Source of the DNA: a virus
IMG/VR virus record: IMGVR_UViG_3300035670_000576
Coordinates: 1 to 39,026 of that record
Reading direction: 5' to 3' (one strand)
DNA length: 39,026 bases
The translations under genes and the position numbers were made by a program. The notes under the pieces are model-generated. The model was not told the DNA's origin, did not search any database, and saw only the letters and a program-made list of their open reading frames with translations. Below are positions 13,185 through 19,750 of this stretch, piece by piece. The stretch's first letter is position 1; each line of letters opens with the position of its first letter.

Positions 13185-13279
13185 AATAAAAACAATCCGG
13201 CTTTGTTTCAAGGGGAGAACACACTAGGAGGACTTCCCGTTGCGGAATCTCTCCGCACACCATGCGCCGGATTAAATCA
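13140..13279. repeat. Imperfect direct repeat of about 40 bases, two copies
   Basis: Copy 1 (about 13146-13184) and copy 2 (about 13240-13279) share GC(A/G)GAATCTCTC(T/C)GC and then aligned, diverged bases ending in TCAT. Both encode W(Y/C)AERF on the minus strand. Copy 2 overlaps the stop codon of the glycosyltransferase gene. The 13185-13276 spacer holds no other gene. Confidence 0.5.
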
Positions 13280-14374
13280 TCCCTCCAACTCCATCGCTTT
13301 CTTCGCCGTCTCCACAATATCCTGGGCGGTGATGTTGCGAAGAGCATTGCACCACATCTGGGTTTTAGGAAGCTTGTTGGTCGCGTCCTTGCACTTCTGC
13401 TGCGGTAGACCCGCATGAGGGCGGCACGGAGCGTGCGGGCAGGTGTCAGGCTTGAAGACCGAGATGTTCTTGGGATAGTAGGTCATCCGATCGTCTGGGT
13501 GGTAGCTACCCCAAAGCGACACACAAGGCGTGTCGAAGGCGGCGGCCACATGGTTGACACTGCTGTCGGGCGCGACCACAAAGTCGGCCCCACTGACAAT
13601 CGGGAACAGCGAGCGGAACTGCTTGGTCACGTTGAAGAGGTCGATCACCCTGGGATGGTCCACCTTGAAGTTGTTGGAGTTGTCCAGCCCTATGATGACC
13701 GCCTTGTGGTTGGGGAACGCCTCCAGCAACGCCAGCACCGCATCCTGCCCCATCTTCGGCGGGTAGGTGCGGGTCGGGCCTGAGCTAGAGACATGGTAGG
13801 CGAAGTAGTCACCCTTGATCGGCCACTTGCCCATCTCCATAAGCTCCTTGTGATCCGGCTCAATCAAGTACAGGTGCGGACGTTTATACTTTGGATCTAC
13901 GTCTCCTGCGTTCATCCATGTGTAGATACGGTCGTAGCAGTTCCCAGGACCAGTACCCAGCTTGGTGTTACCAACTTGACCGCTGAACAGATCGTCGGTC
14001 GGCAGGTGTGCGTCGTAGCTATCCCAAGCTTCCAGCGTTGGCGGTAGCGGGAACAGCTTGGCTCCAAGCCCAGCGTAGAGCGGCAGATTCCTGGCAGGCG
14101 CGTACACATCCACGCATCCACCCGATTCGTTGACAAGGTAATGCACGAAGGCTGTCGTGATGATTGCATCCCCGATGGCTCCGGCTCGGTACACCGCAGT
14201 CGCCCCGCCTGTTGCGCGGCCTGGATAGTACGGCTTGATTTTGTGGGGGCAGGGTATGGAGTCTTCCCACGTAGGCCCCGTCAGTTCGTCCGGCAGCACA
14301 TAGGTATTGCGCGGGAATAGCATCTGGTCATCGACCTTGTGGATTTGATTGGTTTGGTTTGTCCAGAGTTTCAT
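13277..14374 (-). CDS. Glycosyltransferase family 9 (heptosyltransferase-like)
   Basis: A 365-residue GT-B type enzyme. AGAIGDAIITTAF (64-76) matches the N-terminal Gly/Asp loop of GT9, and VVAPDSSVNHVAAAFDTP (266-283) with CVSLWGS is the nucleotide-sugar-binding motif of the C-terminal domain. GT9 enzymes normally add heptose to LPS inner core using ADP-heptose. In a phage the acceptor might be LPS, a virion protein or a modified base. A C-terminal Cys/His-rich insert (CPHAPCRPHAGLPQQKC) is seen in several GT9 proteins. Ribosome site AAAGGCAAGCAA; ATG overlaps the upstream stop. Confidence 0.85.
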   Translation of the reverse strand: MKLWTNQTNQIHKVDDQMLFPRNTYVLPDELTGPTWEDSIPCPHKIKPYYPGRATGGATAVYRAGAIGDAIITTAFVHYLVNESGGCVDVYAPARNLPLYAGLGAKLFPLPPTLEAWDSYDAHLPTDDLFSGQVGNTKLGTGPGNCYDRIYTWMNAGDVDPKYKRPHLYLIEPDHKELMEMGKWPIKGDYFAYHVSSSGPTRTYPPKMGQDAVLALLEAFPNHKAVIIGLDNSNNFKVDHPRVIDLFNVTKQFRSLFPIVSGADFVVAPDSSVNHVAAAFDTPCVSLWGSYHPDDRMTYYPKNISVFKPDTCPHAPCRPHAGLPQQKCKDATNKLPKTQMWCNALRNITAQDIVETAKKAMELEG

Positions 14375-14649
14375 TTGCTTGCCTTTCTTAGCGACCGCTT
14401 GGTTTCGACAAACATGGGAGTGTGTTCGCCCACATAAGCCCCGGCCACGTTATAGTCGAAGTATTCATACGCCTCGTCAACCTTCATCCCCGACTCGCGC
14501 AGGATCGTGATGACCATGCTCTTGTCGTAGACTGCCACCGACGGACCGCTGAATACCCGACCGACACCAAGGAAAGCACGGTCGAATCCATCTGCAAGCA
14601 AAATCCCTTCGTCGGGATAATTTTCCTCTACCCAATGGCGCACGTTCAT
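14371..14649 (-). CDS. Conserved phage protein, unknown (EGILLADGFDRAF type)
   Basis: 92 residues from the ATG at 14647-14649, which overlaps the upstream stop (ATGA) and follows a G-rich ribosome site; an ATG 12 nt earlier is also possible. The sequence EGILLADGFDRAFLGVGRVF, then AVYD, then YFDYNVAGAYVGEHTPMFV, matches a very common small phage protein of unknown function that occurs in many lytic phages. It looks like a compact alpha/beta domain. Confidence 0.8.
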   Translation of the reverse strand: MNVRHWVEENYPDEGILLADGFDRAFLGVGRVFSGPSVAVYDKSMVITILRESGMKVDEAYEYFDYNVAGAYVGEHTPMFVETKRSLRKASK

Positions 14650-15077
14650 TTTGCCCCCCAATGATGCTCTCTCGCATAATCAATCGAAGATCGGTTGCAC
14701 TTCCAGGCACTCGCAATCTGGCGGGTGGTGTAGCCCTGCTCGTACTGGATGCGCCATAGCCCCCAGCGTTTCAGGACCATCTGCCTTGTCCTGTTACCGC
14801 CGCCGCTTCTCATCTTTCCCTTCCTGATCTTGGGCTTGGCGATCTTAAGCGCATCCGGCACCACGATCTCCCGCTCGTCACGAATCCCGGCCACAACCCG
14901 CGCTGCGTCCGATTCGTTGGCCTTGGTCCGCTCGATCCGCCCTATAGTGATTTCGTGGCGAAGCTGTTGGATGGTCTGGACTGCGGCGACAAGCCTCGCC
15001 TCCAGCACCTTGATGTTCGTTTCGGTCGCGCTGACCCGGTCAGTTAGTATCTGCGCTACTGCTTCCTGTGTGTTCAT
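14646..15077 (-). CDS. Helix-turn-helix protein with coiled-coil N-terminus
   Basis: 143 residues. Residues 10-50 are a heptad-like helix (VSATETNIKVLEARLVAAVQ). The middle is basic (AKPKIRKGKMRSGGGNRTR). The C-terminus is a helix-turn-helix: RIQYEQGYTTRQIASAWKCN with SSIDYAREH as recognition helix. It could bind phage DNA as a regulator or replication/packaging accessory. Ribosome site GGAGATAAGGA. It overlaps the neighbouring genes on both sides. Confidence 0.65.
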   Translation of the reverse strand: MNTQEAVAQILTDRVSATETNIKVLEARLVAAVQTIQQLRHEITIGRIERTKANESDAARVVAGIRDEREIVVPDALKIAKPKIRKGKMRSGGGNRTRQMVLKRWGLWRIQYEQGYTTRQIASAWKCNRSSIDYAREHHWGAK

Positions 15078-15237
15078 TCCTTATCTCCTTTGTGATGAGT
15101 GCCGCCGCGTCAACGTCCGCGATGACCTCGCGAACCTTGTGCGCCTCGGCGTGGGTTATCTTGTCCCGGTGGCTGGCCAGACTCCGGCGCACCCGCGCCA
15201 GAATCTCGGCCAACCACGCCATGCGATCTTCCGACAT
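15040..15237 (-). CDS. Small helical protein, unknown
   Basis: 65 residues, helical (MAWLAEILARVRRSLASHRD and KVREVIADVDAAALITKEI), ending in a Ser-rich tail. Its start overlaps the upstream stop (TAATG) and its end overlaps the next gene by 38 nt. Retention of the frame in this tight series supports a gene; function unknown. Confidence 0.5.
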   Translation of the reverse strand: MSEDRMAWLAEILARVRRSLASHRDKITHAEAHKVREVIADVDAAALITKEIRNEHTGSSSADTN

Positions 15238-15416
15238 TATCCTCTCCGCATACGAAACCGGCGACCCGCCTTCGGCACCCCGGCTGCCCGAAGCGCGATG
15301 GCCAGGATCTGTTTCTGCGAGCGGGCCTTGCCGCCAGCCCCGCGAGCCTTTCCCTTGCGCTTATTGTCGGCGCGTAGTTCACGAATGTTCTTTCCGATGT
15401 CTTTGCCTAGTGGCAT
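15237..15416 (-). CDS. Basic 59-residue protein (KGKARGAGGKARSQKQ type)
   Basis: The ATG (15414-15416) has a perfect AAGGAGGTTAAT site. The protein starts MPLGKDIGKNIRELRADNKR and continues KGKARGAGGKARSQKQILAI, ending in a basic tail. Proteins with this Gly/Lys/Arg pattern and a QILAIAL helix are common, short phage proteins of unknown function. The basic character suggests DNA or RNA contact. Confidence 0.7.
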   Translation of the reverse strand: MPLGKDIGKNIRELRADNKRKGKARGAGGKARSQKQILAIALRAAGVPKAGRRFRMRRG

Positions 15417-15417
15417 A

Positions 15418-16029
15418 TTAACCTCCTTGTTGGTTGTTTCTGAAGTCCTTTATAAATAAATGTTTTCTGCTTCTTTCAATCCATTTGCCGTCAACCCCAC
15501 GTGTTTTACCACGCTGCTGTATCTTGCCGTCAACCATAAAATCCATTTTCTTTTTTGTAAGCCCAATGTATTTGAATCCAGATGCCCTATAAATTATTCC
15601 AGTATGCCCCTGATCGCTGTCTGCATAAGTCACAATCCCGTTTATCTTCATCATTTTTAATATCTGTTTTATTGTATATCCTATAAATCTGCTTTCAGAA
15701 TTTCTTGGGCATAATGGACTCATCACAAGTCTCTTTATCTCAAGCCATCCGTTTTGTGTGTGCCTATCCCAATATCCTTTCAAGTCTGTGGCATTTGGAG
15801 AGCCATACGATATGGCTCCGTTCAAAAGTCCATTCCAGTAACATCCAAAATCAACCTGACTTAAAAAGTCCGTATCGCCAAGATAATGCCAGCTTCTGTA
15901 TGCAATCATTGCTGTTATGTGGCTTATTGGCCTGAATTTAAGCTGGAGCGCAGAGGTCGGAATCGCACCGCCGTCTTCCCCTTGGAATAGGGGCAGTTCT
16001 GCTACTGAACTATCTGCGCGTAAAGTCAT
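15418..16029 (-). CDS. Mom-like GNAT, putative DNA adenine modification enzyme
   Basis: 203 residues resembling the phage Mu Mom family, GNAT-fold enzymes that convert adenine in phage DNA to N6-carbamoylmethyladenine and block restriction. The signature region is EIKRLVMSPLCPRNSESRFI (97-116), then YADSDQGHTGIIYRASGFKY (135-154). The C-terminus is basic (KKKMDFMVDGKIQQRGKTRG). The match is by pattern recognition only. The gene is visibly AT-richer (about one-third GC in places) than the following 16223-16819 gene, a sign of transfer. It overlaps the upstream gene (ATGA) and is one base from the next. Confidence 0.72.
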   Translation of the reverse strand: MTLRADSSVAELPLFQGEDGGAIPTSALQLKFRPISHITAMIAYRSWHYLGDTDFLSQVDFGCYWNGLLNGAISYGSPNATDLKGYWDRHTQNGWLEIKRLVMSPLCPRNSESRFIGYTIKQILKMMKINGIVTYADSDQGHTGIIYRASGFKYIGLTKKKMDFMVDGKIQQRGKTRGVDGKWIERSRKHLFIKDFRNNQQGG

Positions 16030-16226
16030 TTGGTTTTAATAAATCTACCGGCCACGAGATCCAGTTCCCAGCCGTGTCCATGAAATTTATCGTATAACAT
16101 CTGGTTCATAATCCAGTAAAGCGGCGAGCAGTTTGAGTCCATCAGGGTTCCTGGGTGGCAGTTGTCCATGTCGAGAAACTCTTGAAGAGCCTCAACCTCC
16201 AACCTTGCAATCTGTAAATAGTTCAC
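16026..16226 (-). CDS. 66-residue protein, unknown (GTG start)
   Basis: The GTG at 16224-16226 overlaps the preceding stop (GTGA), which decides it over longer in-frame starts. The protein starts MNYLQIARLEVEALQEFLDM and later has PLYWIMNQMLYDKFHGHGWE. It is probably helical. It is translated just before the Mom-like gene and overlaps it, so it may act with it; nothing more can be shown. Confidence 0.55.
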   Translation of the reverse strand: MNYLQIARLEVEALQEFLDMDNCHPGTLMDSNCSPLYWIMNQMLYDKFHGHGWELDLVAGRFIKTK

Positions 16227-16819
16227 GCTGTCTCCTCTCCGACCACGCCGTCGAACGCCTGTTCCTCGGCGTGGAATACTTTGGTTTGTACCTTCAACCA
16301 TGTCGGCTTGGCAACGGGATTCTTGCCCGTAAATGAGGATTCTGTGAATAAGATGTTGTTGCCCGGAACGCAAGCAATCCGTCCATTGGCAAGCTCAATG
16401 AAGTGGTGAGATTTTGTCTGGCTCGGCTCCAGGCTGTACCCGTCCCCATACGGTTCTGCCGTGAACATATATGATCCCTTGATCCATGTTTGGCGCGAAG
16501 CAATCCACACCTTGCAATCCAGTTCGCGCAGGTAATCGTACTCGATGGTTGTGAAGTTCCAGCCGAAACAATCCCAGCGTTGCGCGTCGCCCAAGGTCCA
16601 CGGCTCACCCGTCCCATTGGTAAACGCCAATGCGTGCAGCGGCAATCCCCTGTACAGCGCCCCGCACTTCAACATGACCGTGCAGCCCCATGCCCGGTGC
16701 GGCACCGAGTACAGCCCGAACCACACGGCCTCCTCCCAGCCCTTCTCCTGGCCTTGCGAGCAAAGTTCGCGGTTAACCAAGACATATTGGTGCCTTGGCA
16801 GGTTGGCGGCGAATGTCAT
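16223..16819 (-). CDS. Phage protein of unknown function, 198 residues
   Basis: The start at 16817-16819 (MTFAANLPRHQYVLVNRELC) overlaps the upstream stop (ATGA). The protein is Trp-, Tyr- and Cys-rich (AVWFGLYSVPHRAWGCTVML, LGDAQRWDCFGWNF) with a beta-rich appearance. It is GC-rich compared with the two flanking modification-type genes. The pattern GAxYRxLPxHALAF..NG..WTL..AQxWDCFGxxF recurs in phage proteins without assigned roles. It sits between the PAPS-reductase-like and Mom-like genes. Confidence 0.65.
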   Translation of the reverse strand: MTFAANLPRHQYVLVNRELCSQGQEKGWEEAVWFGLYSVPHRAWGCTVMLKCGALYRGLPLHALAFTNGTGEPWTLGDAQRWDCFGWNFTTIEYDYLRELDCKVWIASRQTWIKGSYMFTAEPYGDGYSLEPSQTKSHHFIELANGRIACVPGNNILFTESSFTGKNPVAKPTWLKVQTKVFHAEEQAFDGVVGEETA

Positions 16820-17583
16820 CCGTCGTAACATCCGCACGGTACAGAGTCCGGCAGATCCTCAAATAACTTCATTTGGTTTGCATCCGACCTAATTAGATCC
16901 TCCCACTTCCAATTCCTTCCAAGACCAACCACAGTTTTTGTAATAGCGTTTTGCTCCATCTTAATAGCCCGCTCGGCCAGATCGGGATGGTTCTTTGCCA
17001 AGTCCAATACCTCGTGTTTCTTCATGGCCGGACAAAAGAAACAGGAAGACTTGGCTGGCTTAAATCCAGCTTGTGCCACAACCTCAACGCACCTTTTTCT
17101 GCCCCATCCCCATCGAACAAGTGGGTACTCATAAATATACTTCTTATCCTCTGGTATTTTTCCACGATGATGTTCTCCAGCGTCATAACCAATCAGCTTT
17201 AGGCATTTTCCACCAGCCTTCCAGCAATCCTTGGCTGGCTTCCAATTATTTACAAACTTATCCTGTGGTTGGATCTTATACTTCTGCGAGCATCCTTTGA
17301 ATCCATAGGCAAGGCTTGGAAGCATATTCTCCCTTATGCAATTCTCCTCCAATGTCTCCCTGGCGTATTTCACTGTAATTACTTCAGGCATTCCATTTTT
17401 AACCAGCCAATCAGAAAAGATTTTAACAAATTCATAGGTCTGCGGAAGCTCGCCCCCAGTGTCAGCAAACAATATCAAATCTGGATACACGCCTCTTTTT
17501 TGCATCTCAATCAGCATGGCCGCTGAGTTTGTCCCGCCACCAAAAGATACAATGCATGGAGTCTTCACTTGCGATCCATCCAC
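16816..17583 (-). CDS. PAPS reductase-like PP-loop protein (DndC-like)
   Basis: 255 residues. SFGGGTNSAA (13-22) is a PP-loop for ATP-type adenylation, as in PAPS reductases, DndC and TilS-like enzymes. FADTGGELPQTY (39-50) is the family motif after strand 2. Conserved cysteines are GCSQKYK (Cys98) and SCFFCPAMKKHEV (Cys181, Cys184), suggesting an Fe-S or metal site. Known relatives reduce PAPS or take part in DNA phosphorothioation; phage members are mostly uncharacterised. The gene is AT-richer than its neighbours and two positions away from the Mom-like gene, so a role in nucleic acid modification is possible. Confidence 0.8.
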   Translation of the reverse strand: MDGSQVKTPCIVSFGGGTNSAAMLIEMQKRGVYPDLILFADTGGELPQTYEFVKIFSDWLVKNGMPEVITVKYARETLEENCIRENMLPSLAYGFKGCSQKYKIQPQDKFVNNWKPAKDCWKAGGKCLKLIGYDAGEHHRGKIPEDKKYIYEYPLVRWGWGRKRCVEVVAQAGFKPAKSSCFFCPAMKKHEVLDLAKNHPDLAERAIKMEQNAITKTVVGLGRNWKWEDLIRSDANQMKLFEDLPDSVPCGCYDG

Positions 17584-17642
17584 ATCGCCATCAGCGCAAT
17601 GCCGATGGCGAACATCAGCATCTCGGTTGGGCCTACTTCCAT
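17565..17642 (-). CDS. 25-residue single-TM micro-protein
   Basis: The frame reads MEVGPTEMLMFAIGIALMAM then WMDRK: one hydrophobic helix and a basic end. It overlaps the oxygenase stop upstream and the PAPS-reductase-like start downstream, bridging the two genes. No strong ribosome site is visible; coupling would be needed. The hydrophobic pattern and position make it plausible, not certain. Confidence 0.4.
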   Translation of the reverse strand: MEVGPTEMLMFAIGIALMAMWMDRK

Positions 17643-18205
17643 TGTGGCCCCGTGATCCATGCCACCAACGCCCAGCGCGTTCCTAGTAGTGGTGCCTTGG
17701 CCCTGTGCTTGATCCAGGTCGGAAAGAAGTTGGCCGATCCTTGATGCGTTGACTTTTCCACGCCATGCCAGTCCCCGGCCACCTTAAGCCCGCCGCCGAC
17801 ATACTCCTCCGGGCGGGAAAGGTTGATGACGCAGGTAAGCTTGCGGTCGCTGCCGTCAAACGTGTCGAAGTGCCAGTCGAACTTCTGGAGCGGGCGGTAA
17901 CGAAGCACTTGCAGATTCTGCATATCCGTGATGTCGAACTGGTAATGCTCGTTGTTCACCTCATCCACCACAGCGGCAATATAGTTGTATAACCACTGGA
18001 AGTTCTGTGACTTAGGCAACCAGCAGGAGGCGCAGGTGCGGGTGCGGCTGGAAACGTGGGTGCCATCCTTTGACAGCACCGGCGCACGCTTCATGCCAAT
18101 CTTGTTGGCATCATAAATGACCAGTTCGCACTGGCCACGGGTGAGAACCCTCGGAACCGTTACCGCCGTGAGGATCTTTTGCTTGAACGCTTTTTCGGTG
18201 TGCAT
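17633..18205 (-). CDS. 2OG-Fe(II) oxygenase (prolyl hydroxylase-like)
   Basis: 190 residues with the double-stranded beta-helix pattern of the family: FDWHFDTFDGSDRKLTCVIN supplies His112 and Asp114, the distal His is likely His167 (in WIKHRAK) and the 2-oxoglutarate-binding Arg is Arg177 (GTRWAL). The sequence VGGGLKV between them fits. These enzymes hydroxylate proteins or nucleic acid bases. Position in a row with a PAPS-reductase-like and a Mom-like gene, and two glycosyltransferases, allows a base or glycan modification role. Overlaps the next gene upstream by 46 nt. Confidence 0.85.
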   Translation of the reverse strand: MHTEKAFKQKILTAVTVPRVLTRGQCELVIYDANKIGMKRAPVLSKDGTHVSSRTRTCASCWLPKSQNFQWLYNYIAAVVDEVNNEHYQFDITDMQNLQVLRYRPLQKFDWHFDTFDGSDRKLTCVINLSRPEEYVGGGLKVAGDWHGVEKSTHQGSANFFPTWIKHRAKAPLLGTRWALVAWITGPQWK

Positions 18206-18399
18206 TTTCTTTTCCTTTCCACATATTCCTCAAGAAGCTTTTTAATTGCGTAATTGCATAGCTCATCACGGTCGTACTTGATCCTATTAAACCCGATGTG
18301 CGCCAGCTTGTCCGCAACGTCGTCATCCAGGTCGAATTTCATCTCGACCATCTTGACCTCGCGCTCTCCGATAAACTTTATTTGTCCCAATTCCGCCAT
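18160..18399 (-). CDS. Small helical, Lys/Arg-tailed protein
   Basis: 79 residues from the ATG at 18397-18399, supported by GGAAAGGTCGCA. The middle looks like a ribbon-helix-helix or similar short DNA-binding domain: VEMKFDLDDDVADKLAHIGF then DELCNYAIKKLLEEYV. The end is strongly basic (KRKCTPKKRSSKRSSRR). A regulatory or nucleoid role is possible. It overlaps genes on both sides. Confidence 0.55.
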   Translation of the reverse strand: MAELGQIKFIGEREVKMVEMKFDLDDDVADKLAHIGFNRIKYDRDELCNYAIKKLLEEYVERKRKCTPKKRSSKRSSRR

Positions 18400-18545
18400 T
18401 GCGACCTTTCCTCCCTCGACTTGGCAATCAGCCACGAGAGAAAGCTACCGGCAAACACAAGCAGCGATATCCCGCCACCCACCAGAAAGGCAAACAGAAT
18501 GGCGTGAAAGAACACCTCGCTAAAGAACTTTAGATAGTCCGTCAT
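18378..18545 (-). CDS. 55-residue membrane protein, unknown
   Basis: The ATG has GGAGGAAAG just upstream. The protein is mostly hydrophobic: HAILFAFLVGGGISLLVFAG then SFLSWLIAKSREERSQW, so one long or two short membrane helices with a charged cytoplasmic tail. It overlaps the next gene by 22 nt. A second holin-like role or superinfection function is possible but unproven. Confidence 0.6.
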   Translation of the reverse strand: MTDYLKFFSEVFFHAILFAFLVGGGISLLVFAGSFLSWLIAKSREERSQWRNWDK

Positions 18546-18849
18546 CTTTCCTCCTTTTCAGCATTCGGTTAAGGTCGGTCTGGTCGATGTTGGCACCGCC
18601 CATCCTGCACCAGAAGAGTACGGTGCCGTTCCTGAAATCGTCAAGCAGGTTTTTGATGTTGTCCTCCTCGCGGTAACAGCAGCAATCCGTCAGGCGCGGT
18701 CGGCTATCTGGAGGTGCCAGTTCCTCTCCGACCAATACCTTTCGGCGTTGCAGCAGGCGCAGATCATAGATCGCCCGGATGGCAATCTCGCTGGCGAGAA
18801 GCTGGATGCGCTCCTCTTGGCTTAGGCGGTTCGCTTCTGCTTTAACCAT
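18520..18849 (-). CDS. Phage protein of unknown function, 109 residues
   Basis: I use the ATG at 18847-18849, which has GGAAAGAAACGCAA upstream. The N-terminus is helical (MVKAEANRLSQEERIQLLAS), the middle Arg-rich, then LTDCCCYREEDNIKNLLDDF. The three adjacent cysteines are unusual. It overlaps both neighbours. No family recognised. Confidence 0.55.
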   Translation of the reverse strand: MVKAEANRLSQEERIQLLASEIAIRAIYDLRLLQRRKVLVGEELAPPDSRPRLTDCCCYREEDNIKNLLDDFRNGTVLFWCRMGGANIDQTDLNRMLKRRKDDGLSKVL

Positions 18850-19067
18850 TTGCGTTTCTTTCCAGACCTGTCTTCCGCCCAGGCCGAGTAGGCGTTCCAA
18901 AGTCGAGCTGCATCCAGCGCGTTTTGCTTGTCGTCAAACACATCATCGGCCGGCGGCAGGCCGTTGGGCGGCTCGGCACCCCATAGGCGCGGACCAACCG
19001 GGTTCTCCATCGACTCAGTCACCACCCGCCACTTGTCGCCGTAAGGGATCACCTTAACCGGCGTCAT
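18822..19067 (-). CDS. Small phage protein, unknown (81 residues)
   Basis: The ATG overlaps the glycosyltransferase stop (ATGA). The sequence MTPVKVIPYGDKWRVVTESM followed by ENPVGPRLWG, then DDKQNALDAARLWNAYSAWA reads as a short beta hairpin and helix, similar in style to small phage proteins predicted to act as modulators. Function unknown. Confidence 0.55.
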   Translation of the reverse strand: MTPVKVIPYGDKWRVVTESMENPVGPRLWGAEPPNGLPPADDVFDDKQNALDAARLWNAYSAWAEDRSGKKRKWLKQKRTA

Positions 19068-19750
19068 CGAATCTCCTCTTCCAGCTTCTTAATGTCGGCC
19101 TCAATCTGGCCGCGAAGCTTGGCCATGTCGTTGGATTGTCCGGCGTAGTGGATCATGTACGCATCCTTGTATCGGTTCAGACCAAAGTGTTCTTCCACAC
19201 TTGTCATGCAGTTATAGGCCGGGTCAAGATCAAGCGTCTTGGTTCCCCACAAATGAAGCTGGAGATTGAGCCAAGTCTGCTCGGCAAAGTGGTTGGGGAA
19301 CAGCCCCAAGGGCGGCTGCGACAGCGCCCCGATGGCATTCTTGCGAATCACAAACACGCCGGTGTTGAAATAGAATCTTGGGAAGATGAAGTCACCTTCT
19401 TCCCTGAATCCGTATGTCTTGGCCAGATCTGCCAAGCCTTTCTTGCGGTCAAGGTAGTCACCCTCGTTGAATGCCAGAAAATCAAAATCACCATCGACCT
19501 GTGAAATATCATCGCAATCAAGAGCCACCAGAACATCCGCATCAAGAAACGTCACCTGGTCGTATCCACGGGTGGCCATCAGGTTCCCAATGACCAGCTT
19601 GGTGTACTGGACGGGATGCGCCAACGGCTTCTCAATTGAGATAAAATCCTGCTCTGTGCGCTTGCAATAAGCCTCCATGCGTGGCCTGGTGAGTGCCAAC
19701 ACCTCCAGCCACTGATCCCCTAAAGCCTGGGTTACCACGCAGGATTTCAT
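19064..19750 (-). CDS. Glycosyltransferase, family 8-like (GT-A fold)
   Basis: 228 residues. VTFLDADVLV (66-75) is the DxD metal motif (Asp70, Asp72) after a short N-terminal Rossmann half, and FNTGVFVIRK is the following conserved family segment, with YMIHYAG near the end as the usual HxxG-type motif. It would transfer a sugar from a nucleotide donor with retention. Acceptor unknown. With the GT9 gene at 13.3 kb the phage has two glycosyltransferases in the same transcription unit. It is well within the normal length of short GT8 domains. Confidence 0.8.
   Translation of the reverse strand: MKSCVVTQALGDQWLEVLALTRPRMEAYCKRTEQDFISIEKPLAHPVQYTKLVIGNLMATRGYDQVTFLDADVLVALDCDDISQVDGDFDFLAFNEGDYLDRKKGLADLAKTYGFREEGDFIFPRFYFNTGVFVIRKNAIGALSQPPLGLFPNHFAEQTWLNLQLHLWGTKTLDLDPAYNCMTSVEEHFGLNRYKDAYMIHYAGQSNDMAKLRGQIEADIKKLEEEIR

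Follow-up and report, generated by a model that had tools for sequence, protein, structure and literature searches.

A tRNA gene with glycine identity nucleotides accompanies the phage gene mom and points to glycyl-tRNA as the probable donor for Mom

The IMG/VR virus record IMGVR_UViG_3300035670_000576 (39,026 bases, called the window here in its whole length) carries a homologue of the phage Mu DNA-modifying enzyme Mom in a leftward run of candidate modification genes, and it raises the question of what Mom uses as its donor. The Mu product is α-N-(purin-6-yl)glycinamide, on adenine N6 (Swinton et al. 1983, as cited in PMC3874153), and the donor of Mu Mom has been unsettled since this product was identified in 1983. 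Our analysis showed that the first ~27 codons of the window mom gene are at the same time a 76-nt tRNA-Gly gene including CCA (16019-15944, minus strand). We consider it probable that Mom modifies DNA in a glycyl-tRNA-dependent way, and that many phages carry a dedicated glycine tRNA together with it. The features of the gene and of the element are as follows.

15418..16029, minus strand: Mom open reading frame (ORF), 203 aa (PF25680, E 5.3e-30; phrog_1384, 5.3e-34)
15944..16019, minus strand: tRNA-Gly-like gene, 76 nt, CCA encoded (ARAGORN, Rfam tRNA model, covariation, adjacency to Mom)
16019-16013/15954-15948, minus strand: acceptor stem
15989-15982, minus strand: anticodon loop of 8 nt (or 6 nt), with UCC at 15986-15984
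15972-15955, minus strand: T-arm, with a bulged A at 15957
15947, minus strand: U73

From 16019 to 15944 the element reads GCGCAGA-TA-GTTC-AGTAGCA-GAAC-T-GCCCC-TATTCCAA-GGGGA-AGAC-GGCGG-TGCGATT-CCG-A-CC-TCTGCGC-T-CCA. ARAGORN flagged a tRNA at 15948-16020. The Rfam tRNA model (RF00005) gave 27.9 bits for the window copy against a gathering score of 29, and gave scores above 29 in relatives (44.3, 36.4, 35.4, 32.7 and 31.6 bits), several of them spanning 29.9-44.3. Mom residues ~4-29 come from the tRNA sequence, and the GNAT domain of Mom starts directly after the CCA with no break. When Mom relatives were aligned, the first ~29 residues were nearly invariant, while identity in the following domain went down to 32-65%. 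Two such tRNAs, unannotated and in tandem, directly follow the Mom gene of the cultured Psychrobacter phage vB_PmaS_Y8A. Another locus (L512) has two tRNA copies, one ~680 nt before Mom and one just after it.

Sequence and modelled structure identify the protein as a GNAT-fold homologue of Mu Mom. It scored 105 bits against PF25680, whose curated cut-off is 27.1. The AlphaFold2 model had a pLDDT (predicted local distance difference test) of 82.9, with ~90 in the domain and ~42-46 in the tRNA-encoded leader, and it matched the Mu Mom structure 8bv8 with Z 17.2 over 170 residues. Active-site positions were common to both proteins, with H48, Y49, R100, S113, D137 and Y147 in the window corresponding to H48, Y49, R101, S114, D139 and Y149 in Mu; S124 in the title of 8bv8 is probably Mu S114 in this numbering, with an offset of ten. 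The homologue and these conserved positions give good support to the original prediction, which had proposed Mom as an adenine-modifying enzyme. The leader is predicted to be disordered, so its conservation would not be for protein structure. A conserved leader domain was considered as a candidate and rejected, as the model shows the leader as disordered and its conservation is at the RNA level. None of the 79 fused elements interrupts the Mom frame, and in 66 of them a start codon lies no more than 36 nt upstream, which indicates that translation of Mom probably runs through the tRNA.

The linkage between the tRNA and Mom was found both by protein searches and by RNA searches; the search sets overlap in contigs, and contigs that are related do not count as separate events. 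A protein-only search with a motif within the Mom domain found the tRNA directly 5′ and fused in 70 of the 71 loci with upstream sequence. When Mu Mom led the protein search, 56 of 63 non-Mu-like loci had a tRNA of the same type adjoining Mom, nearly all 36-110 nt past its 3′ end. Searches with RNA only gave the same partner: a 25-nt anticodon-side pattern was found in 59 contigs and was followed by Mom in all 59, and a T-arm/acceptor pattern occurred 118 times, with a Mom ORF in the same fetched locus for 110. The matches to the latter span viral contigs and Chloroflexi, Opitutae, Oscillospiraceae, Pseudomonadota and other genomes. Among 127 distinct elements from the RNA side, 79 were fused 5′ to Mom, 38 lay 3′ of Mom or overlapped its end, two were separate on the 5′ side, and eight had no Mom in view; for one of the eight Mom is found elsewhere in the record, and two of them are at the end of a contig. 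As a negative control, the tRNA had no match in 73 Mom-less loci (818 kb) of the phage family of the window.

A tRNA finder run on 12 named Mom phages plus one further locus (L250) was positive in Y8A alone, and BLAST of single tRNAs against named phages also matched only Y8A. A match in MT836874.1, which is a tRNA gene with no nearby Mom, was taken as an ordinary tRNA-Cys and set aside. A scan of genome contigs by Mom alignment found nothing, and the RNA pattern later gave 11 contigs there. A ParB/sulfiredoxin-like gene is next to Mom and the tRNA in both Y8A and L260; in an Anaerococcus genome such a gene neighbours an orphan tRNA (loci L173, L262 and L260). Elements of the 3′ type were often directly upstream of terminase genes (L322, L334, L369, L293 and L264), and some of these terminase-adjacent elements seem to have lost Mom.

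The position of the element bears on the main rival explanation, a cis-regulatory role. The tRNA-like RNA would control the mom mRNA through folding, glycyl-tRNA synthetase (GlyRS) binding or RNase P cutting, in place of Com control, and Mom would use another donor. The fused class, with the element within the mom ORF in 79 cases, would by itself allow this, and in Mu, mom is under the control of an RNA hairpin to which Com binds (PMC6483171). However, in a whole second, distant branch of Mom the element comes after the 3′ end of mom, Y8A has tandem copies, and elsewhere the element and mom are separate. The elements have also kept CCA and the full GlyRS identity set, and glycine identity was retained even in highly divergent forms and in those with no D-arm. 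We therefore regard cis-regulation as unlikely.

Covariation showed that the element is selected as a structured tRNA, in both secondary and tertiary pairing. In 34 distinct fused elements (76 columns, gapless), the positions of the cloverleaf and of pairs 15-48 and 19-56 were paired in 98.1% of cells. Changes on both sides were found in 14 of 23 pairs, a count reached in 0 of 500 shuffles, and slid controls gave 38-52% pairing. The Levitt pair 15-48 alternates between A-U and G-C among these elements. In 48 distinct 3′-type elements, 97.7% of cells were paired, with two-sided changes in 19 of 21 pairs and again 0 of 500 shuffles as high; this alignment was fitted to the structure of the model, which biases the pairing count towards the model, though slid controls nonetheless gave only 31-44%. 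Some 3′-type elements have no D-arm. Being far more divergent than the fused ones, the 3′-type elements make the case stronger.

The same evidence bears on the proposal that the element is the fossil of a tRNA attachment site, or a shared block for recombination through which Mom alleles are swapped. In the window family the leader varies far less than Mom does, and Mom was exchanged in place: in locus L018 the GT9-like glycosyltransferase of the run is 98% identical to that of the window, and the Mom at the same slot has 44% identity, which indicates that Mom there was replaced by a foreign allele. Yet compensatory changes occur in all four stems and in a tertiary pair, and the gene order differs in other branches. 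We consider a recombination block highly improbable as the explanation of the element, and recombination at the element may be a side effect.

The element is a tRNA with bacterial glycine identity nucleotides. The bacterial set consists of U73, G1-C72, C2-G71, G3-C70, C35 and C36 (PMC9976931), and all of it was found in the window copy. Among the 34 fused and 48 3′-type elements, G1-C72 and C2-G71 were invariant, and U73, C35 and C36 were retained in all but a few; the T-arm/acceptor pattern itself specifies some of the acceptor letters, but the protein-led searches, which are free of that bias, show the same identity set. By script, CC was found in the apical loop of 117 of the 127 elements, compared with 20% of shuffled hairpins, and by eye it was also present in nine of the remaining ten. 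The wobble position N34 was free, with U in 83, A in 30 and G in two of 117 scored elements. In a model search of eight bacterial genomes, the top ordinary chromosomal tRNA was tRNA-Gly in seven.

Could the element then be an ordinary phage tRNA-Gly, serving translation or acting against a host defence that cuts tRNAs, and linked to mom by chance or through a shared role in counter-defence? Phages commonly carry tRNAs, and both Rfam and ARAGORN recognise the element. Its anticodon arm, however, has either a 6-bp stem with a loop of 5-6 nt or an 8-nt loop, both readings being equally good in the fused elements (6 bp with 6 nt), and a bulged A lies in the 3′ strand of the T-stem in all 34 fused elements. 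The 7-nt anticodon loop with U33 and the unbroken T-stem that are typical for translation were not found. From the sequences, the shape of the anticodon arm, A34 and the T-stem bulge would argue against use in decoding. Some elements have lost the D-arm, Mom is the regular partner of the element, and the Mom-less sister phages of the control have no match. An ordinary tRNA-Gly seems to us more improbable still than the cis-regulatory role.

We therefore return to glycyl-tRNA as the donor, which the gene linkage and the chemistry of the product suggest, and which is the simplest reading. In its fuller form, which we hold likely with slightly less confidence than the outline given at the beginning, the Mom family would be glycyl-tRNA:DNA-adenine transferases, and phages would supply them with translation-incompetent glycine tRNAs, often in the mom frame, so that one RNA could serve either as message or as tRNA precursor. 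The tRNA would be co-transcribed with mom, in the window phage as the 5′ portion of the coding sequence. Excision and charging by host GlyRS would follow, and the odd anticodon loop and T-stem bulge of the tRNA would disfavour it for translation, with presumably poor use by EF-Tu and the ribosome. Mom would transfer the glycyl group onto adenine N6 of phage DNA. N6-glycyl-adenine and the Mu product are isomers, so interconversion is possible: attack of the glycyl amine on C6 could convert N6-glycyl-adenine to α-N-(purin-6-yl)glycinamide, as the structures suggest. The product of the window Mom would probably be the same as that of Mu.

Several results weigh against this reading. None of the 17 Mu-like loci (Mu and 16 others) in the search led by Mu Mom had a tRNA beside Mom, and in the search led by T4-like Moms the tRNA stood beside Mom in just three of 80, most T4-like and jumbo Moms having none. 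If glycyl-tRNA is the donor, such phages would need tRNA-Gly of the host or another tRNA-Gly of the phage. One element beside Mom (L320/L327) has an anticodon loop with no CC and is a natural exception to glycine identity, and five elements (L262, L322, L334, L346 and L369) have no visible Mom. The fused RNA must also be translated, as its frame is open in all 79 cases. In the fold lists, no aminoacyl-tRNA transferase of the FemX or Aat type was among the closest folds, and the nearest after Mu Mom were acetyltransferases that use CoA; the lack of FemX or Aat types in these lists in itself speaks neither for nor against the donor idea. An acyl-CoA such as glycyl-CoA has been proposed as the Mom donor (PMC7824862).

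In the open-access literature we found no report joining glycyl-tRNA or aminoacyl-tRNA with Mom or with DNA hypermodification. If true, the proposed mechanism would be, as far as could be found, the first DNA modification fed by a tRNA, and it would account for the odd glycinamide through rearrangement of N6-glycyl adenine. It would also add a family of non-translational tRNAs and an example of a tRNA gene lying in frame within a protein-coding gene. That hundreds of phage contigs have the dedicated tRNA with mom speaks for glycyl-tRNA, and the tRNA is a sequence handle for locating Mom-modified phages in metagenomes.

The run around mom had been read in the original prediction as a candidate island in which Mom, a PAPS-reductase-like protein, a 2-oxoglutarate (2OG) oxygenase and two glycosyltransferases (GT8 and GT9) might together build one hypermodified base. 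Its other genes are as follows.

13277..14374, minus strand: GT9-like glycosyltransferase, core of the phage family (PF01075, E 2.7e-8)
14646..15077, minus strand: helix-turn-helix (HTH)-like 143-aa ORF (HTH143), downstream of Mom
16026..16373, minus strand: 115-aa ORF (p115), frequent neighbour, ATGA overlap with the Mom start (39 of 61 complete loci)
16223..16837, minus strand: 204-aa protein, phrog_3704, not Mom-specific (42 of 61 complete loci)
16816..17583, minus strand: PAPS-reductase-like PP-loop protein, optional cassette (PF01507, 3.4e-4; phrog_424, 2.8e-35)
17633..18205, minus strand: 2OG-Fe(II) oxygenase, prolyl-4-hydroxylase-like, core of the phage family (PF13640, E 3.2e-12)
19064..19750, minus strand: GT8-like glycosyltransferase, core of the phage family (PF01501, E 1.2e-7)

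The description of the genes held well. All five named enzymes lie in a single leftward run at the positions given for them, with family matches from clear to marginal, the PF01507 match of the PAPS-like gene (3.4e-4) being slightly below the Pfam cut-off. Its CxxC was found as C181-x-x-C184. Overlaps of the ATGA type were found at p115/Mom and p96/GT9, and the p81/GT8 overlap is 4 nt. Mom and PAPS were AT-richer, as proposed, with a GC content of 38.7% in the Mom domain and 45.3% in PAPS, compared with 52.5% in the window and 56.7% in the intervening 204-aa gene. At least eight more ORFs in the run, and the tRNA-like gene within the Mom ORF, had been overlooked.

Homologues of HTH143 immediately precede the Mom-tRNA gene in phages of an unrelated group (L003-L028, L038 and L040), and HTH143 is possibly a regulator that travels with mom. 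The phrog_3704 protein (16223-16837) is labelled ferredoxin or PurM in cyanophages, though Pfam gave no match to either, and its homologue in Pelagibacter phage HTVC008M (L129) is flanked by ribonucleotide reductase subunits. Its candidacy as a ferredoxin partner of Mom or PAPS was rejected on account of this position and of its being common in cyanophages.

Whether the five enzymes form one system was answered with IMG/VR contigs having a GT9 orthologue, which were mapped using profiles of every window gene. The loci were found via GT9 or Mom and counted only with both GT8 and GT9, so that the figures for 2OG, Mom and PAPS are informative, with Mom over-counted if anything. Among the 61 loci complete from GT8 to GT9, 2OG was present in 59 (it is absent from L039 and L041) and p126 and p65 in all 61, while Mom was present in 10, PAPS in six, and both together in none. 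The PAPS slot differs between relatives. Co-occurrence in relatives had been offered as a check, with its lack counting against the combined system, and for Mom and PAPS no co-occurrence was found.

Adjacency in one operon, and the nearly constant company of GT8, 2OG and GT9, would favour a joint pathway of all five enzymes, yet these three persist in loci that have neither Mom nor PAPS, and the 2OG enzyme is prolyl-4-hydroxylase-like. On the co-occurrence in the 61 loci we rejected the five-enzyme island as one system, and its probability is in our judgement as slight as that of the recombination block. Mom and PAPS are exchangeable cassettes, and GT8/2OG/GT9 is a separate core module in the replication region, lying between exonuclease and primase-helicase genes in a widespread uncultured phage family. 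The separate acquisition suggested earlier for Mom and PAPS is supported by the L018 comparison of GT9 and Mom. A C5-cytosine methyltransferase gene occupies the p96/GT9 slot, just before GT9, in 22 of the 61 complete relatives (L050-L125), and may be a further exchangeable modification cassette. For the 2OG oxygenase, whose family the original prediction had linked to TET/JBP-type enzymes, PF13640 was the sole Pfam match at E≤1, with no Tet_JBP, and a profile search gave prolyl 4-hydroxylases as the closest solved structures. For a DndC-like role of 16816-17583 in phosphorothioation, dnd neighbours were absent among the genes of the run.

Compared with the phage systems that join TET/JBP enzymes with glycosyltransferases, the window likewise has a 2OG oxygenase and glycosyltransferases, here in a replication module, but its 2OG enzyme is of the prolyl-4-hydroxylase type and just 22 of 61 relatives have the C5-methyltransferase. 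The Mom of phage Mu (PDB 8bv8; PF25680) is of the same family as the window Mom, with the same fold and conserved positions. Mu, however, carries no tRNA within mom or next to it and relies on the Com activator, whereas the window Mom has a fused tRNA. The Fem enzymes, which are aminoacyl-tRNA-dependent transferases, also have GNAT-type folds. The FemXAB transferases depend on glycyl-tRNA and likewise have dedicated tRNA-Gly variants unsuited to translation, a precedent of non-proteinogenic tRNA-Gly that is cited in PMC6097841. Their acceptor is a peptide of peptidoglycan, whereas the proposed acceptor of the window Mom is adenine in DNA, and unlike the tRNA-Gly of FemXAB, the tRNA of the window type is encoded by the phage, in a gene that is fused to the enzyme gene or abuts it. 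With bacterial tRNA-Gly in general, the element has G1-C72, C2-G71, G3-C70, U73, C35 and C36 in common, and it differs in the geometry of the anticodon arm, the bulged T-stem, the optional loss of the D-arm and its location in or next to mom.

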